Assembly (NCBI GenBank): GCA_037042915.1
Contig: CM073194.1
Span: forward strand, 3,162,001 to 3,226,000
Reading direction: 5' to 3'
Source: Auricularia sp. M13
Lineage: Eukaryota > Basidiomycota > Agaricomycetes > Auriculariales > Auriculariaceae
Length of the DNA: 64,000 nucleotides
Below, piece by piece: positions 9,129 through 47,738 of the stretch; the stretch's first letter is position 1; each line of letters begins with the position of its first letter. The notes beneath the pieces are model-generated. The model saw nothing but the letters and a program-made list of their open reading frames with translations, did no database searches and was not told the DNA's origin. The translations under genes and the position numbers were made by a program.

Positions 9129-9140
9129 TGCCGAATGTTG
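9129..9140. repeat. Left target-site duplication of the LINE
   Basis: TGCCGAATGTTG lies directly before the 23-T run that is the poly(A) tail of the minus-strand LINE. The same 12 bases (14 with following Ts) occur at 22906-22917. This is the footprint expected of target-primed reverse transcription. Confidence 0.8.
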
Positions 9141-9329
9141 TTTTTTTTTTTTTTTTTTTTTTTGTGGAGCGTCAGATAGGGTTAGAATAACATAGTTATC
9201 CCTTGCCCATCCTTGCCCGCCTTGGCGGGCTGCTGGAGTTAGGACTGGGAGGCAGTCCACATAAAACGACGGCACCGACCGGAAAAATAGCCTTTAGCAC
9301 ACCTGTTGGGGTAGTGTGGGGCTTGAGAA

Positions 9330-12300
9330 TCAACCGACACCATTCCTGGCGTCATTCCCCGTACCCACTAAAAAACCGGTCTGTTTATTCCAAAATTGTG
9401 CTTTCCAGTAATCAGGGTTGGCACTGCGATCTATCCAAGTATCTTCATATAGTACATTGCACAGTGCCTTTGTCTTGTAACGATGTTTATTTGTGAGAAG
9501 TTTATCCTGCACGCGGCGTGATTCGCACATTTTCTTCCATCTTTTGGCCACCTCCTCTTCTGGCATGACCCAGTCTGGATCCTCAGCGTGCTCAATACGG
9601 GTTTCACACCTTATCTTCCAGATCAGGAAGGCGGATTCTGACACAATAATGCAGAAGATGCGCTCCAGCGCACGATTTCTTGCAGACCCCATGTGTCCTA
9701 TTCGCATGGTTGCACAACCCATGATAACCCCGATGTCTATGTCTATGTTGATCTTGCGACTCTTCAGGAAGTCCTGGGCCAAGGCCCATACTGTTTCAAA
9801 ACCTGAGCTCTCGCATTTTAGGAGGATGTGTTCCATGGTCTCAGTTTCCTGGCATGATGGACATGTGGCATATGACGCCCATGGTTCTGGCATTTTGCTG
9901 AAATAGTCGCCAACTTTGTGCGCACCATGGGCCATTTTCCAAAGGAAGTTGCGCACACTGCGCGAAAGGTTTTTGGATTGCAGACTCTGCCAGAACTGAG
10001 ACTCCAGTGGCATGAAGTCTGTCGCATGATGTACACGCCATTTTATTAATTTGAGATTTTCCAAGGTCGCTTTTCGCTGTTTGACTTTTTTCTGGGCGAG
10101 CCATTTTATGGCTCTATGTGCTTCTCTCTGAGTGATATTTGCAATTGCAAGCCCAGGCTTATCAAAGGGCACCAGCTCCTCGAGGTCCAAATCAAAAGGT
10201 GGGCCCACTTCTGCAGCCACAAGGGCCATTTTTCTTGCCTCTCCAACCTGTGGCCAGTGCTTGACTCTGTTCTTGGCTATGCATGTGAACGAGGTCGGTG
10301 CACCTCTGGCACGCAGAGCTGCAGTCGCTGCTCGCATGGCGTCTGCCTCATTTGGCAGATCCATCCATCCAGTGGACTCATGCTTGGGTAAATCAAGGGT
10401 GAGCATTCTTACTACTGCTGCACTGGTGCTGATCATGTGCAGAGGGCAATGTCTTGGTGCCGTTGTTGCTGCCATCTTTATTGCTGTGGCTACACTGCGC
10501 ACATAGGAGTGTGTATCCCCTGGGCAGAAGCCCACTTTGTCGTCGAAATCGTGTTCTGGAAAATATGCTGCAAAGCCGCCCTTAGCAATTGCTGAATCTC
10601 CATTTATGATTGCACCGCAGACGACCACTTCCACAGCTTCTGCATCCTTGTCTCCATGTGGACGTACAGGTGCCTCATCACATATGGTGTCTGTCACCCC
10701 TCTCCCACTGAGGGCCATTGTGTCCACGAAAGCTCTGTAGTAGCTGGCCAGATCATCACCTTGGTGTAGGGTTGGGTTGAAAATTATTGGTTCACCAGTC
10801 TGGATTGCTTCCATGCGACCCTCTGCGAAAGTTTCCCACATGCTGGAGTCTACTTCAGCCTGTGTGGTCGCAGTGTTCCACTTGGGCGCAAGCTCGCTCA
10901 GTATGTCGCGAGCAAACTCCTGGCATTTGAAGGGGTTCTTGCAGCCCTCTGTTCTATCGGTCATGCAGTTGTCGCATATGCAGGTACTAGACTCCTCATG
11001 GTCAAAGTCATCAGGTTCAGCTATCTCTTCGAGATCTTCAACCGTACAGACCGCATGAGAGGTCTTTAGGCATCGCACTTCTCTCCTATATTCTCGCAGA
11101 ACATCTGGTTGTCCCATGGCTGGGTGTGCCCATATGGGCATATCTTCCCTTATGTGCTCTGGGATCTGAGGCGCATCGAGGGCGACATTATATTTAGCTG
11201 CAACCCTCACCATTTGCTGCAAGATGAAAGGTAGTTTCTGCTTGTTGGGTCGCCACACTTGTTGGAAGGGGTTGATGCGTGCGTCTGTTGGCACCCATTT
11301 CTTGTCCTTGTTGATGATGGCAACTCTGAAGATGAAGTCTGCCAGGTAGGTCCACATTGGACGTGTCTCATCATTTTTGATATATGCGCCCACCCATTTC
11401 AGGTATTGCGCATCATTCCTGCTCTCAGTGTGGAACAGACCCAGACCTCCATGGTCTCTACCCAGGCGCAGAGTATCCATATTAATTGGGTGGCGGCGAG
11501 AGCCAGCCCAGAGGAAGTCAAGCGTCATTTTATCCAGGCGTTTTTCCAGCTTGGTTGGCATGCCTTGGGCAGCAGTAAGGTACTGGGTAAATCCGCCTAC
11601 CACAACCTGTGATATAATGCTTCTACCATTAAGCGAGGGGCGCTTACTTTCCCATCTTTGTAGAGTTTCAGCAATTTTGTCCTGGATGGAGGACCAGGCA
11701 TTCACATTCTGCACTCCATTGCCTGGCCAGGTACCAAGTATGCGAATGGGTTCGCCATCTCTGGCAATGCGCACTGAGTCTGGGATGGCAGGGTCCCCAT
11801 CTTTGAGGCATCTCGAATCCAGGACTTGTGTCCTGTACTCTTTTGTACCCATTGGAACGATTTCAGTTTTCTGCACATTGAAGCGAGCACCTGCTGCAAG
11901 GCACCACTGGTCCAGGATCTGGAAGAGGCGCTGGTAAGAGTCATTCTCACTCATGTACACTGTTGTATCATCTGCATACAATGTGGCGATTAGTTTGCCC
12001 TCAATGCCATCAATCTTGTAGCCTTGCAGCTCAGAGCGTCTGAGCATAGCTGAGAGCGGCTCTATTGCCAAGTTAAAAAGCAAGCAGGAGAGGGGATCTC
12101 CCTGCCTGACGCCTCTGGTAACTCTAAACTTTTTGCTTGCAAAGCCATTGATCATGACCACAGTGAAAGCATTTTCATACAGCGTCCTGACCGCATTCAC
12201 AAAGTGCTCTGGGAAGCCAAAGGCTTTGAGAATCTTGTGCAGATAGTCATGTCTTATGCGATCATAAGCTTTTTCCTGGTCCAGTGCCACAATGGCGCCA

Positions 12301-14426
12301 TTTTCTTCCTTGGCTTCAGCGTAATCAAGGATGAGACTCGTGATTTTGGAATGGTCTGTGATACTGCGACCCTGGACAAAGCCAGCCTGAGATTCATGAA
12401 TGAGCTGGGGCGCAATGCTAGCCAGCCTGAGCGCCAAGGCCTTGGTGTAAATTTTGTAGTCTGTGTTGAGGAGAGTGATCGGCCTATAATTTGCGATCTC
12501 ACTTCTATCTCCCTTCTTGTACAGGGGGCACAGCCAGCCTTCTGCAAATTTGGCGTCTGCGTCTAAGCCATGGAGTTCAATATCTTCAAAGACCATTGTC
12601 ATCATACCCACGACGTCAAAGGTTTGATCTTCTTTGCCCCTGGATTTACAGAACTGCTTGTGGATGACTTTCCAGAGTTCATATATGAGTCCATCTAAGC
12701 CAGCAGCTTTCCCACTTTTCGAGGACGCCAGGGATTCTGTTACATCCTCTCTTGATATTACAGCTGCTAGTTTGGCACGCGCACTTGCATCTGCGCGACG
12801 CTCCAGGTGATCTAAAGCGTGCTCTATGGCCTGTGAGCGCGCAGCTTCATCTACGTCCAGATCTTTGGACTGGATCGAGTTGTGGTATTCTCCAGCCAAA
12901 TCTGCCATATCGCGTGATTCCAGAACATACTGTGCTGGTTCACACCCTGGGCGCTTGAGTTGCATCATGGTGTCACGCGGTTTTTTACTTTTCACCCAAC
13001 TGAACCAGGACTTGGACATGGTCTCTGCTTCCAGCCAGACACGTGTTGATCTATTCTGGAATGTGGAGGTGTGCGAGCCATCCTGTAGATTGTAGATCTC
13101 CATTTCAGCTTTTCTGAGCTGCGCTTTTGCCTCTGTGATTTCATCAGGCGAGGATGCTGCTCTCAGGCAGGTTTTGGCAGAGTTTCTCTGTTCTTGCGCT
13201 TTTGTCAGTTTTGTGCGCCTGGCGCAATTGAGATCTTTGCTTCTGGCCTTGGCTGCCTTTCTTATCTGCTCTTTCAGACGTTCCCAGGTACGCTGGGGGT
13301 TGTTGAATACTGTCCTGCCCAAGAGGGCGATGGCGTCCATCTCTGACTGGGCGCTTTTGCCAAGTTTGTACACCTCTGACATGAAAACTTTGTCCCTTGT
13401 TAGGTTCTCAGACATGGTCCAGCGTCCAGGACCAATGTCTGGAGCATCTCTGCACACTAGTTCCACAGAGATTCTGCTGTGGTCATACGTATTTATGCCC
13501 GACACATTAATTTCCCACTGTCTGCTGACCGCACGCATTTTGTTGGTCAGGTAGATCCTATCAATGCGAGACATGGAGGACAGAGACATGTTTCGCCATG
13601 TCCATTCGATGCTATCAGGGAAAGTGTCTCTCCACCCATCGGTGACTTTTAGATATCTTTTAAGGTCTTCAAAGGACTGTGGTGCATCTATCTTTGACAA
13701 TTTTGCAGGGAAGCGATCGATGGGGTCTTCCACCTGGTTGAAATCTCCCAACATGACATCTGGTTTAGGGATCTTACCCTTTGCACGCTTGAGAGTCTTT
13801 TTTAGAGCTTCCCAGAATTCTCTATTTGCCTTGGCAGTGGTGGGTGCATATATGGCAAGGACGGCCAGGCTTGAGTTCCTGTGCCATTCGATTTTGCACA
13901 CTATCGCCCTTCCTGGGACTAGGACGTGAGTGTCAATAGTGCGATAGTTTGTGAGCAGTTTGTTGAAGACCAGCGCCACACCTCCAGCACCTGTGGGATT
14001 TGCTGGCAGCGCACTATTCTCTACGTGGAGGTGCTCGTAGTACTGGTGAATCTCATCAATGTGCTGCGCATCGAGGTGAGTCTCCTGGATGGCCATGATT
14101 CCAATTTTATGACTGCGAATGTCTTCGGCAATCTTTTTCCATTTGATGCTGCCAGCTACCCTCTGTGCGCCCCGGCCTTTCATATTCTCAGAGGCCAGTT
14201 TGATATAGGCCTTGGTGCTCTTCTTTGAGCGCATCTGATTGTCCTGCATTATTGGTAATACTGCATGGTTTGAGTAGTTATTCCCAGCATCAGATGGTGT
14301 CTGTACATATGCTGAGCTCGACCCTGCCACTGATCGTGGCGTAGTTAGGTCGCTTGCATCAGTGCCGGATTTGCCAGACTGATGCGCATCTTGACGCCAG
14401 CCTTCTGGCGTCAGAATGTTGTTCAT
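9330..14426 (-). CDS. LINE ORF2: endonuclease, reverse transcriptase, RNase H, zinc finger
   Basis: From the first ATG (14426) the ORF encodes about 1698 residues; the frame is open a further 111 codons upstream to 14759 without an ATG. Domains in order are as follows. The AP-type endonuclease carries IMAIQETHL, MLGDFNQVEDP, SRIDRIYL and YDHSRISVEL. The reverse transcriptase carries NYRPITLLNTDYKI, AGFVQGRSI, ALDQEKAYDRI, RGVRQGDPLS and the active-site YADD at 11967-11978. An RNase H-like region includes GGFAAYFPEHDF and CPLHMISTSAAVV. A final zf-RVT-like segment has CPSCQETETMEHILLKC. The protein would nick the target and copy the element RNA. All key motifs are present and the frame is unbroken. 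A 5' start upstream of 14426 by a non-ATG codon or splicing cannot be excluded. Confidence 0.88.
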   Translation of the reverse strand: MNNILTPEGWRQDAHQSGKSGTDASDLTTPRSVAGSSSAYVQTPSDAGNNYSNHAVLPIMQDNQMRSKKSTKAYIKLASENMKGRGAQRVAGSIKWKKIAEDIRSHKIGIMAIQETHLDAQHIDEIHQYYEHLHVENSALPANPTGAGGVALVFNKLLTNYRTIDTHVLVPGRAIVCKIEWHRNSSLAVLAIYAPTTAKANREFWEALKKTLKRAKGKIPKPDVMLGDFNQVEDPIDRFPAKLSKIDAPQSFEDLKRYLKVTDGWRDTFPDSIEWTWRNMSLSSMSRIDRIYLTNKMRAVSRQWEINVSGINTYDHSRISVELVCRDAPDIGPGRWTMSENLTRDKVFMSEVYKLGKSAQSEMDAIALLGRTVFNNPQRTWERLKEQIRKAAKARSKDLNCARRTKLTKAQEQRNSAKTCLRAASSPDEITEAKAQLRKAEMEIYNLQDGSHTSTFQNRSTRVWLEAETMSKSWFSWVKSKKPRDTMMQLKRPGCEPAQYVLESRDMADLAGEYHNSIQSKDLDVDEAARSQAIEHALDHLERRADASARAKLAAVISREDVTESLASSKSGKAAGLDGLIYELWKVIHKQFCKSRGKEDQTFDVVGMMTMVFEDIELHGLDADAKFAEGWLCPLYKKGDRSEIANYRPITLLNTDYKIYTKALALRLASIAPQLIHESQAGFVQGRSITDHSKITSLILDYAEAKEENGAIVALDQEKAYDRIRHDYLHKILKAFGFPEHFVNAVRTLYENAFTVVMINGFASKKFRVTRGVRQGDPLSCLLFNLAIEPLSAMLRRSELQGYKIDGIEGKLIATLYADDTTVYMSENDSYQRLFQILDQWCLAAGARFNVQKTEIVPMGTKEYRTQVLDSRCLKDGDPAIPDSVRIARDGEPIRILGTWPGNGVQNVNAWSSIQDKIAETLQRWESKRPSLNGRSIISQVVVGGFTQYLTAAQGMPTKLEKRLDKMTLDFLWAGSRRHPINMDTLRLGRDHGGLGLFHTESRNDAQYLKWVGAYIKNDETRPMWTYLADFIFRVAIINKDKKWVPTDARINPFQQVWRPNKQKLPFILQQMVRVAAKYNVALDAPQIPEHIREDMPIWAHPAMGQPDVLREYRREVRCLKTSHAVCTVEDLEEIAEPDDFDHEESSTCICDNCMTDRTEGCKNPFKCQEFARDILSELAPKWNTATTQAEVDSSMWETFAEGRMEAIQTGEPIIFNPTLHQGDDLASYYRAFVDTMALSGRGVTDTICDEAPVRPHGDKDAEAVEVVVCGAIINGDSAIAKGGFAAYFPEHDFDDKVGFCPGDTHSYVRSVATAIKMAATTAPRHCPLHMISTSAAVVRMLTLDLPKHESTGWMDLPNEADAMRAATAALRARGAPTSFTCIAKNRVKHWPQVGEARKMALVAAEVGPPFDLDLEELVPFDKPGLAIANITQREAHRAIKWLAQKKVKQRKATLENLKLIKWRVHHATDFMPLESQFWQSLQSKNLSRSVRNFLWKMAHGAHKVGDYFSKMPEPWASYATCPSCQETETMEHILLKCESSGFETVWALAQDFLKSRKINIDIDIGVIMGCATMRIGHMGSARNRALERIFCIIVSESAFLIWKIRCETRIEHAEDPDWVMPEEEVAKRWKKMCESRRVQDKLLTNKHRYKTKALCNVLYEDTWIDRSANPDYWKAQFWNKQTGFLVGTGNDARNGVG

Positions 14427-14999
14427 CACGAACTCTCCCCCCGAAGCGCTGCCTCCTGCTTCCTGAGCACCATCATCCACAGAGGGAAGGGCAGCATCAG
14501 AAACCTCTGGTTCGGTGCTCTGGAACGTGTAACCAGACCGATCATTTGTCACCTGAGATGTGTTGTTGGTGGTAATTGGATTTCGCGCTGTACATCTTGC
14601 AGAGAGGGGCCAGCGCACCCATCTCGCGCAGCTGGCATACCGGCCAGCACGGTGAGCTATGCCAGTCAGTACTACTCGCACCGTCCGGACAGTGCGATTT
14701 CCATCAGGCTTCAGCGTCTCCGCGCGGCTCGCTCTTGGTCTAAATAGACCTCCGCTCACTCCCGCTGCTTCCTGTCCCCGGAGGTCAGTAAATTGGGCTT
14801 CAGGAGGGCACTAGCTAGGATTGTGCGTAGCCGGGGTTTGAGGTTGCCAGGGCCGTTGCCGGTTCAGGGCACTGTGCATCTCTGTTTCGTAATGGGAGGC
14901 GTGCTCGTTTGTGAGTGTTCATGCATTAGCTCCCTTGACACGATCATCGCGTGGTTATTTCATGTATGTTACGTGTGTTGGCGTGCGAGTTTGTAGAGC

Positions 15000-16675
15000 T
15001 TGCAGCTGCGTGAGTTGTTGCGATCCGCGCACGTGCGCGAGATATTTCGGTGCGCGCATCAGCGCGAGAAATTGCAGTGTGCGCACTCGCGCGAAGAGTT
15101 GCAGTATGCTCATTCTCGCGAGAGGTTGCGGTGCGTGCGTCTGTGCGAGAAACTGTGTGAGGATCCGCGGTGCGTGCACCTGCACGAGGATCCACTGTGT
15201 TTGCACCTTCGCGAGAGGTTGCGGTGCGCGTTTCTGCGCGAGAAGTCACGGTGTGCTTGCTTGCGCAGGATAGCGCGGCGTGCGCATCCGCGCGAGAGGT
15301 AGCGGTACGTGCATGCGCGAGCGGGCGTGTGTAGTCGCGGTGTGTGTATCTGCGTGAGAAAGCGTGATGCGCTCGCCCGCGCGAGAAATCGCGGTTCGCT
15401 CACCCGCGCGGGAATTCGCGTTGCGCGCACTTGCGCGCGAAACCGCGTTACACGCACCCGTGTGAGGAAGCGCGATGTGCTTATCCGCGCGAGAAGTCGC
15501 GGTGCGCGCATCCGCGCGGGAAGTAGCGGTACGTGCATGCGCGAGCTGGCGTGTGTAGCTGCGGTGTGTGTATCTGTGTGAGAAAGCACGGCGTACGGAT
15601 TTGTGTGAGAAAGTACGGTGCGCTCGCCTGCGTGAGAGGGCGTGATGCGCTCACTCGCGTGAGAATTTGCGTTGCACGCACTCGCGCGAGAATCCGCGGT
15701 GCGCGTTTCCGCGCGAGAGTCCGCGGTGCGCGCATTGCGCGAGAGTGCGCGGTGTGCGCACTTGCGCGAGGACCCGCTGTGCGCTTACCCGCGCGAGAGT
15801 CCGCGGTGCGCGCATTGCGCGAGAGTGCGCGGTGTGCGCACTTGCGCGAGGACCCGCTGTGCGCTTACCCGCGCGAGAGTCCGCGGTGCGCGCACTTGCG
15901 CGCGAATCCGCGGTGCGTGCACTTGCGCGAGAACCCGCGGTGCGCGTTTCTGCGCGAGAATCCGCGGTGAGTCCGCGGTGCGCTCACCCGCGTGAGAATT
16001 TGCGTTGCACGCACTCGCGCGAGAATCCGCGGTGCGCGTTTCCGCGCGAGAGTCCGCGGTGCGCGCACCCGCGTGAGAGTCCGCGGTGCGCGTTTCTGCG
16101 CGAGAATCCGCGGTGCGTGCACCCGCGTGAGAGTCCGCGGTGCGCGCATTTGCGCGAGAGTCCGCGGTGCGCGCACTTGCGCGAGAGTCCGCGGTGCGTG
16201 CACTTGCGCGAGGACCCGCGGTGCGCGTTTCTGCGCGAGAATCCGCGGTGCGTGCACCCGCGTGAGAGTCCGCGGTGTGCGTTTCTGCGCGAGAATCCGC
16301 GGTGCGCGCACCCGCATGAGAGTCCGCGGTGCGCGTACTTGCGCGAGAGTCCGCGGTGCGCGTTTCTGCGCGAGAATCCGCGGTGCGCGCACCCGCATGA
16401 GAGTCCGCGGTGCGCGTACTTGCGCGAGAGTCCGCGGTGCGCTCATCCGTGCGAGATCCACGGTGCACGCACCCGCGCGGGAATCCGCGATGCGCGTACT
16501 TGCGCGAGAATCCGCGGTGCGCTCATCCGCGCGAGAGTCCGCGGTGCGCGCACCTGCGCGAGAATTCGCAGTGCGCATTTCTGCGTGAGAGTCCGCGGTA
16601 CGCATTTCTGTGCGAGAACTTGCGCGAGGGAGCGCGGTGTGCGCGCCTGCGCGAAAAGATTTGCTGTGTGCGTCC
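15000..16675. repeat. 27-bp CpG-rich minisatellite inside the LINE
   Basis: About 60 copies of a 27-bp unit, for example CGCGAGAGTCCGCGGTGCGC followed by GCACTTG, run head to tail. Copies are well conserved from about 15700 to 16650 and more degenerate toward 15000. Because 27 is a multiple of three, several frames stay open on both strands and give nonapeptide repeats (RESPRCAHL on plus, TADSRAETR on minus). Higher-order 81-bp blocks occur, for example about 16305-16440. A longer block starting TAGCGGTACGTGCATGCGCG recurs at about 15300 and 15525. The array lies between the ORF1-type block and ORF2 of the LINE. It may be a spacer, promoter-like array or structured RNA; a protein-coding role is not supported. 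Confidence 0.85.
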
Positions 16676-16950
16676 CGCATGTTCGGTCGTAGTGGCAGCA
16701 CCATTCTATAATTGGGGGAGGTACTACAGCGGAGTCGGGCTTGAGGAAAAGGGGGGCGACGTGGGGAGCCGGCGCGACAGCGTGAATGTGGCGGGCTCGC
16801 AAGAAGGGAGAGTGCGGTGGCGCGGTCAAGAATGCTTATGTGCATGGGTGCGCAGTGACGAGGGGGATGATATCTGCATACAAGAAGGGAGGGGGGGGGG
16901 GTTGTGCACAAGAGCGGCGTGGGCGGCGAGGGGTACGGGGTTCCTGGCTG

Positions 16951-18324
16951 TTAGTGCGTACGGCCTCCGCCACGTCCGCCGCGACTGCCTCCGCGGTTGC
17001 TGGCGCCTCCTCGTCCGCCGCGGTTGGCGTTGCTCCTTGTGCTGCCGGTGCCCTGCGTGCCGCTGTGCTGCGACGCTCCGTTTGCGTTCGTCCACCCTTC
17101 GATGCGAGCCGTTGGGCATTTGCCTGTGGGGTGACCCGCGCTGTTACATACCGAGCAGGACCACGCTGGCTTACGCATTTTGCCGTGTCCTTTGAAAGGG
17201 TGGCGGATGGGTATGGCGCTGACGGCGTCGCGGAGCTCGAAGAGGAGGTCGGGGGGGAGGAAGTCAACGTCGGCATGTACATTGTACTCCTTAATCGACT
17301 CGGTGCTCGCAGTTGTCGTCAGCGAGCGGACTGTTATCGAGTCGAGGAAAGCTTGAATTAAGGGCTCAGCCGCTATTTTGTTCCGAGAGGCGAATGTTTC
17401 GAAGGGCGAGCGGAATTTCGGGCTGGCTTCCCAGGACGGTCCGATGCTGGCGCGTACCTGCGCGCCCCTGAGCTGCGTATTTGTGACGGTCCCCAGGTGC
17501 GACGAGGCGAGGAGGGTGAAGCGAAAAGTCGTGATGCTGGCATTGTCGATCACGTAGTGCCTCTTGTCGCACAGCGCGTCTTCCTGTGTGCGCGTGATGC
17601 CAGTCAGCAAGAATGTGTTCTTGCGGATGCCTTTGCTGCGGGGGTCTGATTCCGCGCTCGTGACCTGCGGTTTGCTGCTCGGGAAGGCTCCTTTGAAAGA
17701 CTTGACCAGCTTCTTGACGACCGCCAGTGGGTGCATGGACGAGGGGTCTATGCCGCCGATGCTGTCGCACGTGAAGACGACTTTCGCCTTCTTGTATCCC
17801 GACCACGCCGAGCGCTGCGTGGGGCAGAGGTTGCTGAGGTGCCCATTTGCTGCCATGCCGTCGATCCGGCGGTTGTTTCCGCTGGAGGCGACGTGGACTG
17901 TGCGCTCATCGAAAGCGGCGTGTAGCTCGAAGTCATCGTCGTCGTCTTCTCCGTCCGTGTCTTCTATGTCCTCCTCCTCGTCGTCGAGATCGTCATCGAT
18001 GTCGTCCTCGGGCGTGTACGCGCGCGGTGGCTGCGCTGCCGGGATGTCCGGTGCTGCATATACGTCGTCGTCCTCGATGGGGTCATCCACCTCCATCTCT
18101 TGCAGGCCTGAGCGTTGGCGAGCGTGGCGGTCGACGGTGTGTTGGCGCCTGGGGGGGTGTCTCTGGGGGTGCCGTGTCTGGGCCTCTTGTTCGTGCACAG
18201 AAAGCTGTCGCTCTCGTCGTTGTGACCTCAGGAGTGACGGCGAGACTTGATCGCCGGCATCTCCTCGCAGGCCGGCTGCCCTGTCTGGGTCCCGCAGGTC
18301 CTCGGCGTCGTCGTGGGTGAACAT
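16951..18324 (-). CDS. LINE ORF1-type protein with CCHC zinc knuckle and RGG tail
   Basis: This 457-codon ATG ORF is the last of five ORFs on the element's sense strand. It has a basic N-terminus, a strongly acidic stretch near residues 100-135 (DDDLDDEEEDIEDTDGEDD), and a central globular part of about 200 residues. A single zinc knuckle CSVCNSAGHPTGKC fits C-x2-C-x4-H-x4-C, and a Gly/Arg-rich end (RGGRGG, RGGSRGGRGGG) follows. Zinc knuckles and basic tails are usual in LINE ORF1 proteins, which coat the element RNA. It ends just before the minisatellite. It is the best candidate for the true ORF1 of this LINE. A host origin is unlikely, given the target-site duplication enclosing the region. 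Confidence 0.65.
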   Translation of the reverse strand: MFTHDDAEDLRDPDRAAGLRGDAGDQVSPSLLRSQRRERQLSVHEQEAQTRHPQRHPPRRQHTVDRHARQRSGLQEMEVDDPIEDDDVYAAPDIPAAQPPRAYTPEDDIDDDLDDEEEDIEDTDGEDDDDDFELHAAFDERTVHVASSGNNRRIDGMAANGHLSNLCPTQRSAWSGYKKAKVVFTCDSIGGIDPSSMHPLAVVKKLVKSFKGAFPSSKPQVTSAESDPRSKGIRKNTFLLTGITRTQEDALCDKRHYVIDNASITTFRFTLLASSHLGTVTNTQLRGAQVRASIGPSWEASPKFRSPFETFASRNKIAAEPLIQAFLDSITVRSLTTTASTESIKEYNVHADVDFLPPDLLFELRDAVSAIPIRHPFKGHGKMRKPAWSCSVCNSAGHPTGKCPTARIEGWTNANGASQHSGTQGTGSTRSNANRGGRGGASNRGGSRGGRGGGRTH

Positions 18325-18395
18325 GTCGCGTAGGAGGTCTCGTGGCGCCGCGAGTGAGTGGTGGCTGGCATTCGTTGCGGGTCCAGGACGGCGGT

Positions 18396-19517
18396 CTATT
18401 CTACAGGAAGTTCAGCGCCTACATTCGACGTCTGTGCAGTAGCAGTGGTTTCGTACCTTGGCCAGAAGCCTTGGGTCGCTGTGTCGTTAGACCCGCCACC
18501 GACTTGCTGTGTGGCCTGCAGCGGGGCGATGGGCTGTCGGGCGGGGCGATTCCTTTCGCGGCCCTGCTGCTCGGCCTGTGGCTCGCCTTGCGCCTGCAAG
18601 GCATCCGCATTTTGAGAGACTTCCAGCGGCCTGGGCGCGCGCGGTAGGAGGGCTGCCGGCTGTATCGGTGGCAGGGGTCGTGACGCAGAGTGCCTGGGCA
18701 TCGGCGCGATCTGGCGTGCACCCGGTTGGGCCGTCGGGGGCTTCAGCGATCTTTCGCGCTGTTGCTCCTGCGTGGCTTCCGAAGGTTGTAGCGGCGGCCA
18801 CATTGAGACGTCGAGCCCTTCGAAAGACTGCCTGCGTCGGTCTCTGCGCTCGACCTCCGTCTGGTGTATTTTTTTCCGGTCACCGGGCGTGGCTGCGTCG
18901 TCCGCGGTTCTGGTTTGCGCTGGGCGTGCTGGGGAGAGCTCGGCGCTTATGGGGGCTGACGCGGAGGGCGACGAGGGGAGGAATGGGTCTGCGGTCGTCG
19001 TTTCCAGTACCTCGTGTTGCAGGCCTGGGACGGCGTGGTCGTCTGGCTGGGTGGCAGGGACGAGGACTTCTTCTAGCTCCATCTGCGAGGTGCGTCTGGG
19101 AGCTTCCGGCAGCGGTGACGAGTGCGGTAGGGCTGGGACGCGCGTCGTGGCCTTGCTGAGGACTCTGCGGCAGGAACGGCTGGTAGATGAGGGTAAGAGG
19201 AAGATGGGGCGTCCCATGGCAGAGTCTGGCGCACCCTGTTCCTCTGCTCGAGGCGCAAGTGTCACTTGTCGTCCCTTGGCAGCCATCTCGGCGGCGCGCG
19301 GGTCTGTATGGCGGCGAAATGAGGGTGGGCGGACCGGGCGAGTAGTAGTCTCGACATACCTCAGAATTCCGCGTGGAGGACCTATTGTGGACGCGCGGTT
19401 CCTGAGCGCCGCCTGCTTGCTCAGCACGGGTGCACGCGCGTTCATGTAGAGTCTTCGCCACCGCCTGGCGCTGGGCTGACGAAAGGGCACGGTAGGGGAA
19501 GAGCAGCCCTGGCCCAT
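18396..19517 (-). CDS. LINE upstream ORF d (373 aa), unknown
   Basis: This ATG ORF starts 57 nt after the stop of ORF c and stops 72 nt before the zinc-knuckle ORF. It is rich in Arg, Pro, Ser and Gln and looks largely disordered (for example PMPRHSASRPLPPIQPAALL). One charged segment, DRKKIHQTEVERRDRRRQ, could bind nucleic acid. No domain is recognised. Its place in a same-strand ORF array inside the LINE suggests an ORF1-related product or the N-terminal part of one. Alternatively it is an open but untranslated frame in GC-rich DNA. Confidence 0.4.
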   Translation of the reverse strand: MGQGCSSPTVPFRQPSARRWRRLYMNARAPVLSKQAALRNRASTIGPPRGILRYVETTTRPVRPPSFRRHTDPRAAEMAAKGRQVTLAPRAEEQGAPDSAMGRPIFLLPSSTSRSCRRVLSKATTRVPALPHSSPLPEAPRRTSQMELEEVLVPATQPDDHAVPGLQHEVLETTTADPFLPSSPSASAPISAELSPARPAQTRTADDAATPGDRKKIHQTEVERRDRRRQSFEGLDVSMWPPLQPSEATQEQQRERSLKPPTAQPGARQIAPMPRHSASRPLPPIQPAALLPRAPRPLEVSQNADALQAQGEPQAEQQGRERNRPARQPIAPLQATQQVGGGSNDTATQGFWPRYETTATAQTSNVGAELPVE

Positions 19518-19573
19518 TCAGCTCTGCTCATCGAAGCCGCGTCAAGGGCGGGCAGGGCGCTTGGATGTGGGAT

Positions 19574-19990
19574 CTACGGCCTGCTACGTGGTCGTGGTAT
19601 GACAAAGTCGTCCCGATCTGGCCGGCCCGGCGTGTTTGAATCGGAGTTGTAATTACAGGCCGCGTCATCCTCGCTCGTACCCCCATCGCGAAAAGGCCGC
19701 AGTGCTGCGCGATCTTCGCAGCATTGCCTCAATACTATCGCATGATTTTCCAGAGATCTCCGGACTTTCCAGAGCTCGGCTTTCGTGCTCGGGTGGCGCA
19801 TAGAGACTGGTTCCTTGCAAATCTCATTTCTGTCGCGATTTGCGTCAGCGCTTGCGTCGTCCACGCTGATCCCTGGCGTGTTTCTGGGGCCTGTGCGCTC
19901 GGCCGAGTGCTTCTCCGGGCGAGTGACTTGATTTCGGAACGCTCGGTGATCTCGGCCTGCCCCTGCTGTCTCGCTTGATGATAACAACAT
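19574..19990 (-). CDS. LINE upstream ORF c (138 aa), unknown
   Basis: An ATG ORF lies between ORFs b and d, 45 nt after the stop of b. It is polar and charged, with few hydrophobic stretches; one region (STKAELWKVRRSLENHAIVL) could be helical. No family is recognised. Confidence rests only on its place in the consecutive array. Confidence 0.3.
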   Translation of the reverse strand: MLLSSSETAGAGRDHRAFRNQVTRPEKHSAERTGPRNTPGISVDDASADANRDRNEICKEPVSMRHPSTKAELWKVRRSLENHAIVLRQCCEDRAALRPFRDGGTSEDDAACNYNSDSNTPGRPDRDDFVIPRPRSRP

Positions 19991-20034
19991 CTGGTCGTTT
20001 AAAATTCGCTCTGGGAGGCTATGGCTACACTCTT

Positions 20035-20565
20035 TTACTCGATAAAATGCACGCGGCGTTCTCTGCCCTCCTTACGCTTCCTCCTCCATTCCAAGGTCTT
20101 ATTGTAGTCGATAACGAGGTGCGTTCCCTTAATTGCCTCGACGTGTGCGGTTTCGCTCTCGGGGTACTGGAGCCAGTGCTGGTCGCGCCTGTCGCGTTGG
20201 CCCCATTTTTGGCCACAGCCGCAGAGGCATGCGTAAGCACGTTTCTTCTGATACGGCCCAGATGTATCCTGCGGGATATCCCGCAGTATGTCATCTATGC
20301 TCGCAGCGACTCGTGCCGTAGGTGGGGCGTGGGTTCCGGTCGGCTGGGACTTGATCGCGTTACGCACGGTCTCGTCTCCTACTGTGCTCGCCGCCATCGC
20401 TGCCGTGCCCTTTGATGGTGCCGGCGTCAGCAGTTCGTGCTTTTCTCTATTCTCCACCTCCTCTCTCAGCGGCAGTATGTTCCACGTCGGGGTCGGTGAC
20501 CTGCTCAGAGGTTCTCCGTTTTCGCCAGAGCTGGCAAGATTCTTGTGCGCCGGTGTGGGGTTCAT
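20035..20565 (-). CDS. LINE upstream ORF b (176 aa), possible zinc-binding segment
   Basis: This ATG ORF begins 17 nt after the stop of ORF a. The first two thirds are disordered. A C-terminal segment, ACLCGCGQKWGQRDRRDQHW, pairs two close cysteines with a downstream histidine and could bind zinc, but no standard finger spacing is met. A basic end (WRRKRKEGRERR) follows. Function is unknown; it is read as part of the element's 5' coding block. Confidence 0.35.
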   Translation of the reverse strand: MNPTPAHKNLASSGENGEPLSRSPTPTWNILPLREEVENREKHELLTPAPSKGTAAMAASTVGDETVRNAIKSQPTGTHAPPTARVAASIDDILRDIPQDTSGPYQKKRAYACLCGCGQKWGQRDRRDQHWLQYPESETAHVEAIKGTHLVIDYNKTLEWRRKRKEGRERRVHFIE

Positions 20566-20581
20566 TTGCCTGCGCCGCTGG

Positions 20582-21229
20582 CTATGTGCAGCGCGGTTGT
20601 ACAGTGCGCGGGCTTGGCAGAGGGGGCGTCCAGTGTTGGGTGCCTGGTCTCACAGTTTTTAAGGGGTGAGACTGGGCGATAGATCGTCTAGGCGCTTTAT
20701 TCTCAATGGATAGGTCTTGGAGGACGTCATTAGGGGTAGGAGCAGCGCCGGGACTCAATGTGTTCGACGCTGTTCGCCTCCATAGTTCTACGTCACTCAG
20801 GTCGGGATTCGAGGAGGTGGACTTTCGCCTCTGACTGAGGAGGGGCATAGCGCCATCTTTGCTCTTCTTTTGTTCCGGGCTAAAAGCTATCTGATCGCGT
20901 TTCACCCTGTGATGGTTGCCATATATACTTTGCTGGCGCCGTGGCTCATTTGTTATTTTCTCATCCCCTCCCCAGATTTCAGATGTGTCGCTCCGTTTCG
21001 TGAGTCCTGCATCCGCCCTAGGACCTTGCTTAAAGAGCCAGCGTGCCTGCGCATTGCTTGTGTGGGGTACGTATTCAAATTCGGGATTCTCCGGGGTTAT
21101 CTTACCTACTCCGCTCGCAGCGGCTTCTTCACGTTCGTCGCGTCGTGCAATGTCATTCCCCACTTTGTGTCGTACTTGGAACGACCTCAGGGTGTGGCTG
21201 CTTTTTTTGTATGCATGTAGGTGAGACAT
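20582..21229 (-). CDS. LINE upstream ORF a (215 aa), unknown
   Basis: This is the first ORF of the array, with an ATG at 21229 and about 1.68 kb of leader before it. It is Lys/Arg/Ser-rich (for example FSPEQKKSKDG and PLLSQRRKSTSSNPDLSD) with no recognised domain. The leader (21230-22905) has only short ORFs in mixed frames and nothing recognisable. Confidence 0.35.
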   Translation of the reverse strand: MSHLHAYKKSSHTLRSFQVRHKVGNDIARRDEREEAAASGVGKITPENPEFEYVPHTSNAQARWLFKQGPRADAGLTKRSDTSEIWGGDEKITNEPRRQQSIYGNHHRVKRDQIAFSPEQKKSKDGAMPLLSQRRKSTSSNPDLSDVELWRRTASNTLSPGAAPTPNDVLQDLSIENKAPRRSIAQSHPLKTVRPGTQHWTPPLPSPRTVQPRCT

Positions 21230-22905
21230 TGTGGAATTCTGACTTTCTTACGCTCCGTTTCAGTATTTGGGCGCTTCTCTCGTCTATTTTGCCGGCGGCA
21301 TAGTGCTTACTCAGTGCCCGGGATGTGCCGGAGTGTGAAAAGAAGGCCTTACTGCTGCTCGGGAGGGGTACATGGCATGCTCTCGCCGCGGTCTCGATCG
21401 AGGGGGACGGCAGGTACGTCTCCGATCTGTATCGCGCGGGCGGCTCGTTTCTCTTACAGTACCAGCACGCAGCTCACTTTAGAAGCGCTCGTCCATGTTG
21501 CTGTAGTATTAGCAAATGAGAGCCGCTCCGTTTCTATGTTCCCTGCCATCCAGATGTCAGATCTCAGCGCGGTCCGATTGACCATGTCTTAGAGAGCTGG
21601 ACGCGGCGAGCCTTTGCGGGTGCTGTAGACGACGTTTGGTGCGCACTGCGCGAGTTCGTACTGGCGATCTGCATCGTCTGTGCTTCGCCGTCCCGTCTCG
21701 CTGGACCTCCGTCTTGCTTTCCACGATCTACTGCTCATTGCCCGCGCCAGGGTCAGTTCTAACGTTGCACACAGGATGTCGAGGGCGGAATCGTTACGGT
21801 ACGTTCGTTCAGACGTCGTTGGGTCAGTCTCTGCGGCTCACGTACTATAAAGGCCAGCGTGTCTCGTCCTTTTCTCAGCATCCCCCAGACTTTCCTTGCC
21901 TCTCAGACATGTGCCGTCCTTTCAAGTGCGTGCTCGCGGCATTCGTGGCCACCATATGAGAGCTTACGCATCGTAGGATCATCATACGCTATCGCTGTGG
22001 CGTACGTGTCCTTCTGTTTTATCACTTCTTCGTTTTTCTCACGTTTCCCAGCATAACATCAGCAATTGGCTCAACCCGCATAGACTCTTTCCTTGCACGT
22101 CGTACTGTTGCTTCAATAAGCCCTGGGCCGAGCGCGTAGAATGTGGATGTCTTCATTGCCAAGACGTGAGCGTCATTCCGTTGATTGCTGCCGGCGATCG
22201 CTGATCTTTTTTTAGTCGCCGGGCAACACCAATAACGTCCCCTCCGGCCACAGCTGCGACGGCTGCGGTGGTCCGCGCCCCGCGTGCTACTGCACGCTTT
22301 TCCATCGCTGCCCTAACCATGGTCTGTAGCTTGATGGCTTCCGGACCCCGCGTGCGCTGCTGGCCAGATCGTAGCGCTGATCAATGTGCGTAAATTTTTC
22401 GTGGGTGCTTGCATTACCGTGCCCGCACGCTCTTGCTGATTATTCCAGGCTCCCGACGTTCTCTAGTGGCCTCCTGTACGTCTTCCCGTCCTCCATTACT
22501 CTTCACTGACTGGTCTCGTCCAGGAATTCGTACGGCGTGGTGTTACAGCTCGGTGGTGGAAAATCTACGTGCTTGGTGTACTTTCTTGGACTTTGCGTTG
22601 TACTTCTAGATACGAGCGCTGGTCTCCCTCGCGCTGCGCGCGAATACATGCCCACTTGCATTTGGCGCTCCTACGTCCTATTCGACTGGGGAATTCGTCC
22701 TTTAACGGCATTCCATTTTTCGCACGTAATGCTCGTTTGTAACGATTTTATTTGCAGCAAATGACGAGCGCATTGCGCAAAGCGCTGCGCCGTGGTACTC
22801 GCAGCGGTCTTGTCCCGGCAGCCTTGTTGTGGCGGCGAGTAGGGCGTTTGGTATGCTCTTGCGCTGGTATTGCTACCGTACATGGTGGTACGGGAAAGAG
22901 CCGCC

Positions 22906-22917
22906 TGCCGAATGTTG
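22906..22917. repeat. Right target-site duplication of the LINE
   Basis: TGCCGAATGTTG here matches 9129-9140 exactly and marks the 5' end of the element. The next gene starts only about 215 bp to the right, so the insertion lies in or next to its promoter. Confidence 0.8.
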
Positions 22918-23131
22918 TTGCATTGTCGCGACATTGTCTTGTAGCTTATCATGTGACGATAAAATTTGAGTTAGGTATGTTATAATTACCCCTTCAGCCA
23001 TCTCATCGCTTGGTAATCACCTGTGGGAGCAGTGCTTCGGGCGTTTTAAGAACAATGTAACAACGGCTTGCTTGCCACACTTCGGTTTGCTCCCGCAAAT
23101 AACTCCGATCCTCCCTTGTCCCCGAGTCGCC

Positions 23132-29703: not shown

Positions 29704-32142
29704 ATGACTGCCTGGACTCCTAATGGCCCTTCAGCTGCGCCCCCAGCATACGAGGCCACAACTACAGCCTCCGTTGCGGCCTGCACGCGAGCCAGAGCAG
29801 ACGGGTCCTCCGAGGTTCTCATTACCCTGACCCCGCCTCTCGTGCCTCCAGAAGCGACGACACGCGTTCCGGTTGATATAGTCTGTGTCATTGATGTCAG
29901 CTCGAGCATGGCGGAGCCTGCTACGCTGCCCGCCGAACCAGGTGCGTAACAAACACGTACGTGTAAGTGCATTTTTGACCTCCCGAATGACAGGGACCGT
30001 TCCAGAGATCACGGTATGTCAATGCGTATTGCTTTGAATTATCCTCATACGATTTCTTCCAGGAACTCTGCATTCTCGACGTTGTCAAGCATGCTCTTCG
30101 GACGATCATCACATGCCTCAATGCGGACGACAGAATCGCAATTGTCACATTCTCTTCGAGGGCCAGTGTCAGTAACTGGTGATCAAGCGGTCTCTTCACG
30201 TGTCTTACGCGTCCTGTAGATTGATGCTGATTTAACGTTTATGGACGATGCTGGCAAGCGAAGCGTCAACACGATTGTTAGCAATCTTCGCCCGTCGGGG
30301 TCAACAAATCTGTGGGACGGGCTGAAGACAGGCATGGACCTACTGAATCCGACCGCACGCGCAACCCTTGCAGCAAATGGTAGTATTCCGACTTCGTGGC
30401 AACTGCCAGCGTACGCGCAACGGGATACGAGCGAGCAGCGCGTCGCGTCCGTGTTCCTGCTCACCGATGGCGCGCCCAATGTCACGCCTCCTCGCGGTCA
30501 CATCCCCATGATCCAGAAGTATCTTGCAGCCAATCCACTCTTGAACTTCAGCATCAACACGTTTGGATTCGGGTATGCTCTTGACTCGCAGCTGCTCCTG
30601 CACATCGCGGAAGTGGGCGGCGGTACCTACGGATTCGTTCCGGACTTGGGGTTCATCGGAACGGTCTTCGTGCATGCTCTTGCCAACACTCTCGCTACCT
30701 TCGCCGTCCGCTGCGCTATCCAAGTCGAGTACGACGGGAGCGCCCTTGAGCTTGCCGTCCTGGGCGAGCCGTTCATCGAGTTCGAGAAAGGCATGCGTGT
30801 GGAACCTGATCTCACTGTGCTTCATATTACAGTCGGTGAATTGCAATACGGGCAGTCTCGCGACTTTGTCATCACTGCCAGGCCTCTCAAACCTCTTGAC
30901 GTCAGCAGCGACACGCCGTTGCTTAATATCCTGGCGACATCTCATCCATGGACTCGGGACAGGCCTCTCACTACCGTGACGACCATCAACGCATCCCAGT
31001 TAGCTGCTACTGAGAGCTCGATTGCTAACTCCCGCATCCTTAACGAAGTGCAGCGGATCTCGTTTGCTGCAACGTTGCTCAGTTTCTTCTCACGCGACAT
31101 GACTTCGGATCTGTTACTGCAGAAGGCGCCTCCATCCACGCCGTCTCACGAATCCCAAACATTCATCGCGTTCGAAAAGCTTGTCCAGGATCTGGTAGAC
31201 CAGCAGCATTCTGCAGCTGCGGACGCTGAGGGACAGGCGCGTATGGCGCTGGAGGCCCCGCATTGGGCTCGCTGGGGACGGCACTACCTCCCTTCCCTCG
31301 CGCGCGCGCATCTGCGCCAGCGCTGCGGCAACTTTCGAGACGCCGGCCAGATGGTGTATGGTAGTGGTTCGCCGCTGTTCATCCATGAGCGGGACCGCGC
31401 GGACGAGGCATTCGACAAGCTTCCGCCGCCGCGCCCCACTTCACGCGCCGACCATACTGGTTGGGCTGGATCTCCGCGCCAGCGCGGTGGGCAGAGGACA
31501 CAGGTGCATAGCATGGCGGTATGGAACTCGCGCGTCGGCCCTTGCTTCTCTGGATCGTGCGCCGTCAGGCTCGCTACTTCTGGAGAGATACGCGTTGACC
31601 AGCTGACCCGCGGAACGATCGTCGCAACTCCCGCTGGTCCTCGCGCCGTCGTCGCAGTCGTCCGAACGCCCACGGTTGAAAGCACCCTGCTCTGCTCGCT
31701 CGGCCATGGCTTGAAGATCACCCCGTGGCACCCTGTCTTTGTTGAGGGAGAATGGCGCTTCCCAGCTGACCTCGTCGCCCCCGCAGTGGCTTCGGAAGCC
31801 GTATGCGACGCTGTGTATTCAGTGCTGCTGGAACCAAGCCCTGACTCGGATGCTCACGCGGCATGGATTGGCGATGTGCTCTGCGTGACGCTCGGCGGCG
31901 GCGCGCAGGACGGGCCGCGATACCATCCTTTCTTATCAGACTACGCCCGTGTACTGCGCAGTCTGAGTCAACTTCCGGGCTGGGAGAATCCAGCGGGTAT
32001 CTTGCGATGCATCGGCACCACAAGGAGTTGTTCAACTGGCCTTATCTGCGGATTCGCTGGAGGGGGTGAGAGACAAATGGGACGAAGGCCGCTTTACACG
32101 GAACGAGGTCTCAGCTCTGTATTATCTCCTGCTTGTGCATGA
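29704..32142 (+). CDS. vWA-Vint (Hint/intein-like) protein
   Basis: Four exons (29704-29941, 29994-30013, 30063-30167, 30220-32142) join in phase to 761 residues. A von Willebrand A domain spans about 50-260, with the MIDAS motif in IVCVIDVSSSM, the strand RIAIVTFSSRAS and LTDGAPN. A linking domain (Vwaint type) follows. A Hint-like Vint domain starts at about residue 563 with CFSGSCAVRL and contains a HGLKITPWHPVF block near 620. Vint domains are related to inteins and hedgehog autoprocessing domains. The leading Cys and internal His suggest it could cleave itself, but activity has not been shown for this protein. No signal peptide is seen, so it is probably intracellular. The 20-nt exon 2 is needed to hold the frame. 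Confidence 0.85.
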
Positions 32143-43868: not shown

Positions 43869-44680
43869 GCCTTCCCGAGATGTATTCAACACTTCGCGCA
43901 TTGATGGGTGGGACGGGGTTGACGCATTTGAGATTAGGGGGTAATTCAGAGCACTACAGTAGTAGATATCTGCAGTATATTGTGCTAATACTTACCTACG
44001 TTGGAAATACCCATGTATGTTCCCGCTGCACGATCATATATATACGTTGTATATACGATCATATTTGAATGGGACGAGGTTGATCTCGTGATCGCTGATC
44101 GGAATTCAGCTCCGCTATCTGCGAGTTGAACCACGCTCGCAATCTTCACCACAGCTGGCTCGCAGCCCAGCCGTTTGGCCCCATTTCTGCATAATCAACG
44201 CCCTAGCTGAACAATCTGACTACTGCGTCTTCTCGATGCATAGGAGTAATCCGGGCTCGGCATACCTCAGTGGTTCGCAACCTTTTCCGATGATTCTTGG
44301 CGAATTTCTGGGCGTTTCTCTGCTGCTTGTGTCCGCTTGTTTCCAACAACTCTCGGCGTTGTCTACGACATCCTTGGCGCCTCCTTGGACTAGCAGCAGA
44401 CATGCCTTCTCGCGGGTCAGTGCAGGATTCGACTCTTGGGCCTTTCTCTTCGCGTCGCGTTGCATGGCGATAGATCATTTTGGATTGCATTCTGTATGCA
44501 TGTGACTGGGATGGTGAGTGCTGCACGCGAGCGCCGAGCCCCAGGAAAAATTCCAGTATCCTGGATAGATCGCTCTTAGCCTGGCTTGGTACTGGCATTC
44601 ATTTCCTCAGAGCATCGTCATCTCCGCCAGCAACAAACTGTCTCTAGACCACCTTCGTTATTCTGCCCGCACGACCGACC
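43869..44680. other. Intergenic, no gene recognised
   Basis: No supported gene. The end includes the promoter of the first SKN1-like gene. Confidence 0.4.
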
Positions 44681-47112: not shown

Positions 47113-47738
47113 ACTTTCAGCCATTATCCCGTTTATACACCATAGAATGTATTCCGCTCAGCCCTACAGGGTGTCGATACTGTCCATACCACCTTTTCAT
47201 CTACACCTTCGTTTGACCCTCGCTTTTTGATAACCGCAATGCCCTTCATCATATACAACAGCGGCCGCAAGGCCGAGCCACTCGTTGAGGGGTAGATAGC
47301 TTGACATTGCGTGTACTCATTTTCCCAGCTCTTAGCGTGATATCTTGCTTGGGGCGTCATGCAGGAGGGATATTCTGCGTAAGTAGATTTCTTCTGAAGT
47401 CTTCGAGCCAACTGACACGACTTGGCGGGATTATCCGCAAATAACAGACCATCGGCCTCTAAGAATAGGGCATTGGGGTGCAGTTGGGGAGAAGTTCGGT
47501 AAAGTTAGAACGGGTCCCTGGACGCGTTGTTTACGCGTCTCAGTCGTTACAGCTGAACGGTGGCGGTGGTCGAGGCTTGAGGAGACGAGTGGCTAGCGTG
47601 GGAAAGATCGGCCGGCGAGCGGGATCTTCTGCCTTTCCTGGCTCCCATCCTGATTCCATCCCAACAGCATTCCTCTACGCCGGCGCCACAGCCCATAGCT
47701 GATCCACACTCTTTCTACACCTACGCTCACGTCGAATA
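47113..47738. other. Intergenic between the SKN1-like copies
   Basis: No gene is seen; it serves as promoter region of copy 2. Confidence 0.4.

Follow-up and report, generated by a model that had tools for sequence, protein, structure and literature searches.

A stretch of 64,000 nucleotides from contig CM073194.1 of Auricularia sp. M13 (the window) carries a full-length 13.8-kb fungal non-long-terminal-repeat (non-LTR) retrotransposon, a long interspersed nuclear element (LINE), which was inserted by target-primed reverse transcription and occupies positions 9141-22905. It is one of 14 copies in the genome assembly (52.1 Mb, 14 contigs), which we named c01 (the window element) to c14. In this family, one 3' half, consisting of open reading frame 2 (ORF2) and the 3' untranslated region (UTR), is combined with about eight ancient 5' halves, each with a 5' RNA structure, ORF-A and ORF1. 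The junction lies within or next to a spacer, rich in repeats, that separates ORF1 from ORF2. Recombination among the copies is shown by tracts of identity, by the pairwise homoplasy index (PHI) test and by a rank conflict between ORF1 and the reverse transcriptase (RT). We give this reading as a whole (the unit, its duplications, the unequal ages of its halves, and recombination) a probability of about 80%.

The limits of the element in the window are as follows.
9141-22905, minus strand: the whole LINE, with its 5' end at 22905 and its 3' end in poly(A); a second whole copy (c02) and further copies with their own duplications support these limits.
9129-9140, no strand: 3' copy of the target-site duplication, an exact match.
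22906-22917, no strand: 5' copy of the target-site duplication; the match is 14 bp when 22918-22919 are included.
9141-9163, minus strand: poly(A) tail of 23 nt, seen as a run of 23 T on the plus strand.

The sequence TGCCGAATGTTG is exact at both 9129-9140 and 22906-22917. On the element strand the duplication is 14 bp, AACAACATTCGGCA, of which two A's are ambiguous with the tail, and the order is duplication (22917-22906), 5' end (22905), poly(A) (9163-9141) and duplication (9140-9129). With one mismatch or fewer, the 12-mer was found three times in the window (two exact) versus 0.45 expected, and 1 of 100 shuffles equalled this. The bias of A over T on the minus strand stops sharply near 23.0 kb. 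In a same-strand self-comparison of c01, the only repeats besides the element itself lay inside the minisatellite region, and no long terminal repeats (LTRs) were found. Evidence for the whole unit came from c02 on the same contig, which aligns from 22905 to the poly(A) and matches nothing beyond; its flanks are unrelated and carry their own 17-bp duplication. The initial annotation had taken the 12-mer for a target-site duplication beside a 23-nt poly(A), had proposed that the whole interval moved as one unit, and had suggested comparing the 5' ends of other copies with 22905. The observation is confirmed, and this comparison supports the proposal. The element was also presented as one of the larger LINEs for a fungus; no size comparison for fungal LINEs was found in the literature searched.

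When the last 1000 bp of the element were searched against the genome, 14 places (itself included) matched at 98-100%, the next two at 71-72%, and the others more weakly. Ten further copies were fetched, and three more (c12-c14) in part; in the latter, the last 1 kb of the 3' module is 98% identical. The RT domain is 98-100% identical in amino acids across all 14 copies. Exact duplications of 11-17 bp flank 13 of the 14 (c01, 14; c02, 17; c03, 15; c04, 15; c06, 13; c07, 17; c08, 16; c09, 16; c10, 11; c11, 17; c12, 17; c13, 13; c14, 15 bp), and one or two A's counted in several of these lengths could come from the tail. The duplication of c05 is imperfect (TCTACGCTACGAG versus TCTATGCTACAAG, 11 of 13 alike). 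Twelve copies are full-length (12.6-14.1 kb): c01 (13,765 bp), c02 (13,687), c03 (13,911), c04 (14,124), c07 (12,631), c08 (13,517), c09 (14,007), c11 (12,995), c05 (about 14.1 kb once an 8.6-kb LTR element is set aside), and c12, c13 and c14 (about 12.6, 12.6 and 12.8 kb, from coordinates). The other two, c06 (10,115 bp) and c10 (6,430 bp), are 5'-truncated. The insertion in c05 (contig C3, near 3.77 Mb), an LTR retrotransposon about 8.6 kb long whose two 730-bp LTRs are identical, interrupts ORF2. The family has a LINE-type RT, an endonuclease, no LTRs, poly(A) with duplications of variable length, and 5'-truncated copies, as expected of LINEs.

The two halves of the element differ in age. 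The shared module and the spacer lie as follows.
9141-14902, minus strand: shared 3' module (ORF2 and 3' UTR), 95.1-98.5% identical among 11 copies.
15026-16603, minus strand: spacer separating ORF1 from ORF2, with tandem repeats of 27 bp; even c01 and c02 diverge in it.

The 3' module is 5.76 kb long, and its first 1.5 kb are slightly less alike than the rest in the 11 copies. Substitutions per synonymous (dS) and nonsynonymous (dN) site in ORF2 were 0.047-0.174 and 0.004-0.015, respectively (55 pairs, 11 copies). For ORF1, dS was 1.06-2.08, the proportion of synonymous differences (pS) 0.57-0.70 and dN 0.13-0.53 (15 pairs from the 6 copies with a long ORF1 frame), and the coding DNA is 70-77% identical between copies. 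For ORF-A, pS was 0.46-0.82 (28 pairs, 8 copies). In every pair with finite dS, dN was lower than dS. These alignments were untrimmed, and c13 and c14 cover ORF1 in part. Grouping the 5' halves yields eight types: c01 and c02; c06 and c11; c07, c12 and c13 together with c05; and c08, c14, c03, c09 and c04, each alone; c10 has no 5' half. In their 5' halves c07, c12 and c13 are 99% alike, and c05 is 90-95% identical to them. The closest separate types, c08 and c14, share 71-80% nucleotide identity, with a dS of 0.70 in ORF-A.

The edge between the halves is nearly common to the family. Near-identity to c01 begins at window positions 14883-14902 in 7 of the 10 fetched copies; it starts at 15307 in c08, and in c02 it extends from the 5' end. 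In c05 it begins at 16333, at 87% over the spacer and the first part of ORF2. The distance from ORF1 to the RT is 4.1-6.0 kb in 13 family copies; outside the family it is 3.6-4.1 kb in 18 of 21 loci and 5.0, 5.9 and 8.1 kb in the other three. Tandem repeats in the spacer are strong in c01-c05 and c09, with a period that is not always 27 bp, and modest in c08.

Pairwise comparisons revealed tracts of unequal identity. Over 0-6 kb, c01 and c02 have 25 mismatches (about 99.6% identity). Their identity falls to 84.6-95.8% in the four spacer bins, is 95.4-97.2% at 8-10 kb and returns to about 99.5% for the remainder, from 10 kb onwards. Between c06 and c11 it is 97.6-100% in 20 of 21 bins and 90.6% in one 500-bp bin. 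The shared 5' half of c05 and c07 is 88.6-95.8% identical, with two spacer bins at 66-68%. Moreover, the nearest neighbour of a copy shifts along the 3' module. The PHI was 0.258 versus 0.456 in permuted data, and none of 2000 permutations was as low (291 informative sites, 3' module). The minimum number of recombination events (Rm) was 84, a value inflated by recurrent mutation, and PHI is the test that we relied on.

For a control, the window element was compared with 21 loci outside the family in which an ORF1 match is paired with an RT match. Their RT is 67-84% and their ORF1 20-69% identical to the window's. The LINE at C6:335781-342273 (ORF1 69%, RT 74%) ranks first by ORF1 but not by RT, and the LINE at C1:5199113-5203453 has 43% in ORF1 and 84% in RT. 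Because the ranks of the C6 locus conflict, the exchange of halves may also be older.

A crossover between inserted copies is disfavoured, because a reciprocal crossover would mismatch the duplications and 13 of 14 match exactly. Thus, the chimeras would have arisen before or during insertion, or by non-reciprocal conversion. We consider template switching between co-expressed LINE RNAs to be, on balance, the probable main route. The RT would start copying at the 3' end of one LINE RNA, switch in or near the repeat-rich spacer onto a related LINE RNA, and complete the copy on the 5' half of the latter; the chimera would then insert with a single target duplication and spread. Internal patches may reflect double switches or gene conversion, which perhaps contributes beside template switching. 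Template switching is favoured since entire 5' halves have been exchanged and the edge falls shortly after the spacer repeats, since both truncated copies carry the same module, and since template jumps of fungal LINEs are known.

Several observations weigh against this interpretation. The tandem repeats are weak or short in c06, c07 and c11, and none were reported in the truncated c10; thus, the repeats may help and are not required. The common edge could be the mere point at which an unconstrained spacer turns unalignable. The duplication of c10, only 11 bp, is the weakest, because control 11-mers from the 3' flanks of ten copies were found again upstream in 2 of 180 trials. Internal patches such as that in c06 and c11 look equally like gene conversion. 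Outside the family, ORF1 and RT identities still correlate (Spearman 0.60), so most of the older elements need no exchange.

The strongest competitor, which we hold to be a real though lesser possibility, is that the 3' halves, once inserted, were homogenised by gene conversion among copies dispersed in the genome while the 5' halves stayed old. It would account for identity patches with intact flanks (c01 and c02 at 6-10 kb; the 500-bp bin in c06 and c11) and for nearest neighbours that shift along the 3' module. However, it fits poorly with high identity to c01 that starts at nearly one base in seven of ten copies and continues alike to the tail, with ORF1 coding DNA that was not homogenised, and with truncated copies that both carry the same module; nor does conversion alone explain the longer spacer of the family. 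An ORF1 and an ORF2 of different kinds could also be brought together by the insertion of a 5'-truncated ORF2 module into older LINEs between ORF1 and ORF2, as proposed in PMC4120745. However, the exact duplication that directly follows the tail has its partner at the 5' end of the whole unit in 13 of 14 copies, which leaves no old ORF2 between tail and duplication, and about eight independent insertions at nearly one spot would be required. On these grounds we rejected it as a general route, which is improbable, although it may have happened once in a founder.

The remaining explanations are less probable still. Repeats of 6 kb at 95-98% identity are hard to assemble, and the copies are known from the assembly, not from reads; a collapse of repeats, or their correction towards each other during assembly or polishing, is nonetheless very unlikely in view of the few long contigs, the unique flanks, whose duplications match in 13 of 14 copies, and modules that differ by 1.5-4.9%. 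Small patches such as that in c06 and c11 could be polishing errors. The strong differences in ORF1 and the 5' regions might also suggest a fast-evolving 5' half (diversifying selection or local hypermutation) in elements whose halves were never exchanged. We rejected this explanation, which has very little probability, because it is contradicted by ORF1 synonymous sites near saturation with fewer amino-acid changes, and by 5' halves that are alike within types (about 99.6% in c01 and c02, 99% in c07, c12 and c13, and 99.2-99.6% over the first 3 kb shared by c06 and c11). Since dS is near saturation while dN is lower, the difference in ORF1 is one of age under constraint, not of adaptation. 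Finally, the 12-mer might match by chance, with a shorter LINE of about 5.8 kb beside unrelated sequence. The initial annotation had named its own warning sign, namely other copies ending near 14.8 or 17 kb with the upstream ORFs elsewhere as separate genes. This was seen in part: near-identity to seven of ten other copies ends at about 14.9 kb, and high identity to c01 stops before the 5' half in nine of the ten fetched copies. However, each of these copies extends to a duplication of its own, at 12.6-14.1 kb or, in the truncated pair, at 10.1 and 6.4 kb, and all except the truncated c10 have a related ORF1, so the interval is one moved unit. Together with the whole copy c02 and a 5' end that is conserved at the duplication in all 12 copies reaching it, this refutes the chance match, to which we give next to no weight.

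The coding parts of the window element are listed below.
9330-14810, minus strand: ORF2, stop to stop, 1826 codons in one open frame, with the first ATG at about 14426.
13458-14153, minus strand: endonuclease domain of the apurinic/apyrimidinic endonuclease (APE) type (Exo_endo_phos, 6.4e-10; also matching LINE-1 endonuclease chains).
11856-12515, minus strand: RT domain (RVT_1, 1.2e-38).
9804-9998, minus strand: zf-RVT-like segment, 24.5 bits, under the Pfam cut-off of 27.5.
16954-18411, minus strand: main part of ORF1 with a CCHC knuckle and an RGG tail, from a motif search, with counterparts in other 5' types.
18399-19517, minus strand: frame with the N-terminal part of ORF1, in another frame here and in a single frame in several other copies.
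20038-20649, minus strand: ORF-A, 204 codons, zinc-finger-like with an SRSPTPTW motif, with counterparts in other 5' types.

The RT matches LINE-1 ORF2p at 5.9e-44. The initial annotation had described an ORF2 with endonuclease, RT and RNase H, five further same-strand ORFs, and a minisatellite. The minisatellite is present (27-bp period, about 15026-16603), and Pfam supports the endonuclease and the RT. RNase H was detected in neither Pfam nor PDB: in the segment between the RT and zf-RVT, no Pfam match appeared up to E 10, and the best PDB sequence match was arginase (E 0.27). By eye, this segment is without the acidic residues of active RNase H, and ORF2 may contain a decayed RNase H domain. 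The count of ORFs was corrected to three with counterparts across 5' types (ORF-A, the CCHC ORF1 and ORF2). When seven other same-strand frames of the 5' half were tested, three (ORF-A and the two ORF1 pieces) had counterparts in other 5' types, three matched c01 and c02 only, and one had a single weak match in c11. ORF1 is broken into two overlapping frames in c01, further broken in c02, and one long frame in c04, c06 and c08. For ORF-A and ORF1 nothing credible was found in Pfam, and a single-sequence AlphaFold model of ORF1 had a mean predicted local distance difference test (pLDDT) score of 38.5 and no usable fold. Both proteins probably bind nucleic acid.

ORF-A was found by tblastn in 12 of 12 copies with a full 5' half, and at 59 places in the genome (E<=0.001), 12 family copies included; 47 matches lie outside the family. 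A LINE RT lies 2-15 kb downstream of 40 of the 59 matches (family included). Genome-wide, 56 further RT matches were found at >=60% identity over most of the domain. Long LINEs with ORF-A seem to be common in this fungus.

The 5' end of the element contains one further feature.
22843-22905, minus strand: 5'-terminal RNA structure, with compensatory changes.

The first 63 nt or so are conserved in all 12 copies that reach the 5' end. A four-helix structure was drawn from single folds and then scored on the alignment. Of the cells, 90.7% are paired, versus 84.5% for shuffles, and none of 500 shuffles reached that level; sliding the structure by 1-3 columns lowers the value to 38.2% or less. The covariation score was 0.194 versus 0.089 shuffled (0 of 500), and six pairs changed on both sides versus 3.7 (6 of 500). 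One of the five measures, the number of further pair types, was not above the shuffles (9 versus 9.8; 438 of 500 shuffles reached it). In the well-aligned helices, both partners are altered in two pairs (A-U/G-C and G-C/U-A), and these two follow one and the same split of types. RNAalifold recovered three of the four helices unaided; helix 4, which MAFFT aligned poorly (60.4% of its cells are paired), is not taken as strong support.

When the genome was searched with a pattern that left the letters of one pair free, 31 places matched, versus 7 for a reversed control pattern. Twelve of these are family copies and 19 are others, of which nine lie upstream of a same-strand ORF-A and/or LINE RT match. 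Each of these nine has a Watson-Crick combination at the free pair: G-C in four, A-U in four and U-A in one. Two have G-C instead of C-G where the stem ends, and a single position is unpaired in one of them. Since some of the nine are near-identical pairs, there are fewer than nine independent cases. A tenth place (C1:9006465) has an RT match 3.8 kb downstream, outside the neighbour list used, and the remaining nine have no ORF-A or RT neighbour in the lists.

A Kozak-like AUG (ACCACCAUGU; ACCAUCAUGU in c14) lies in the first hairpin loop, at about 22881-22883 of the window. It is at nt 21-35 in the 12 copies, as their starts were set, and the downstream reading frames differ between 5' types. 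We rejected it as the start of a conserved peptide, because the peptides differ between types and the shared stretch is partly in different frames. Thus, the conservation at the 5' end is that of RNA. The structure is probably a cis element acting as a promoter, in translation start or in RNA processing. R2 and L1Tc reportedly have hepatitis delta virus (HDV)-like ribozymes at the LINE 5' terminus, and the present RNA is likewise structured at the very 5' end of a LINE. Unlike those ribozymes, its supported pairing is nested, not a double pseudoknot (a by-eye comparison with the HDV fold), and no Rfam family matched it up to E 5.

Elsewhere in the window, the protein encoded at 30220-32142 combines VWA, Vwaint and Vint (Hint, intein-like) domains. 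The SKN1/KRE6-like open frames at 44569-45792 and 47699-48706 are neighbours and perhaps a tandem duplicate. DUF6534, a family of mushroom-forming fungi, has 10 genome matches at E<=0.001, 8 of them above the cut-off, which makes an agaricomycete host likely.

Tad-like fungal LINEs have a CCHC ORF1, with an APE-type endonuclease, RT and RNase H in ORF2. The window element shares the CCHC ORF1, the endonuclease and the RT, and differs by an extra ORF-A and by the lack of a detectable RNase H. It is presumably much longer than these LINEs. We do not file it as Tad, as it has the CCHC ORF1 without a detectable RNase H. The names Tad, Deceiver and Inkcap for fungal LINEs appear in PMC3411680 and PMC9674265. 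PMC4120745 describes reticulate ORF1 evolution in Jockey-superfamily LINEs (CR1/L2), inferred between old animal lineages. As in those elements, ORF2 is constrained and tree-like and ORF1 types are shuffled between lineages. Unlike them, one young 3' half and about eight old 5' halves occur here in one fungal genome with readable junctions and duplications. In Magnaporthe, the MGL LINE makes chimeric retroelements by template jumps, with a 14-bp duplication round a chimera (PMC2104539). The machinery is that of a fungal LINE in both cases; the MGL chimeras join the LINE to other transcripts and are there called retropseudogenes, whereas in the present family one LINE is fused to another at full length, and the resulting elements have multiplied. 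Chimeras of mammalian LINE-1 with other RNAs also carry the foreign sequence 5', mostly in sense, with one target duplication (PMC13174262); the partner here is instead the whole 5' half of another LINE with its ORFs. Among the papers listed for LINEs that recombine, are long, have three ORFs or a structured 5' end, or come from fungi, and for tandem repeats in LINEs, none describes such a family or pattern in its title or abstract opening; the literature covered was mainly open.

That 12 of 14 copies reach full length (12.6-14.1 kb) suggests a processive RT. The covarying 5' RNA also precedes several older LINEs, and it offers a concrete candidate for a cis element new to LINEs. Tentatively, the family might be a modular, almost sexual LINE population, in which a single catalytic 3' half passes among about eight ancient 5' halves, these being repeatedly exchanged in a dedicated spacer between ORF1 and ORF2. 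The 5' halves might be kept diverse, for example by host silencing of common ones, and the conserved 5' RNA, of a new kind, might be the shared cis signal. Exchange of 5' halves is a standing idea for the renewal of ORF1, and perhaps for escape from silencing, that has mostly been inferred from old, eroded cases. Here the junctions, duplications and ages are readable in one genome, so that the route, template switching or gene conversion, is testable in strains of one fungus.

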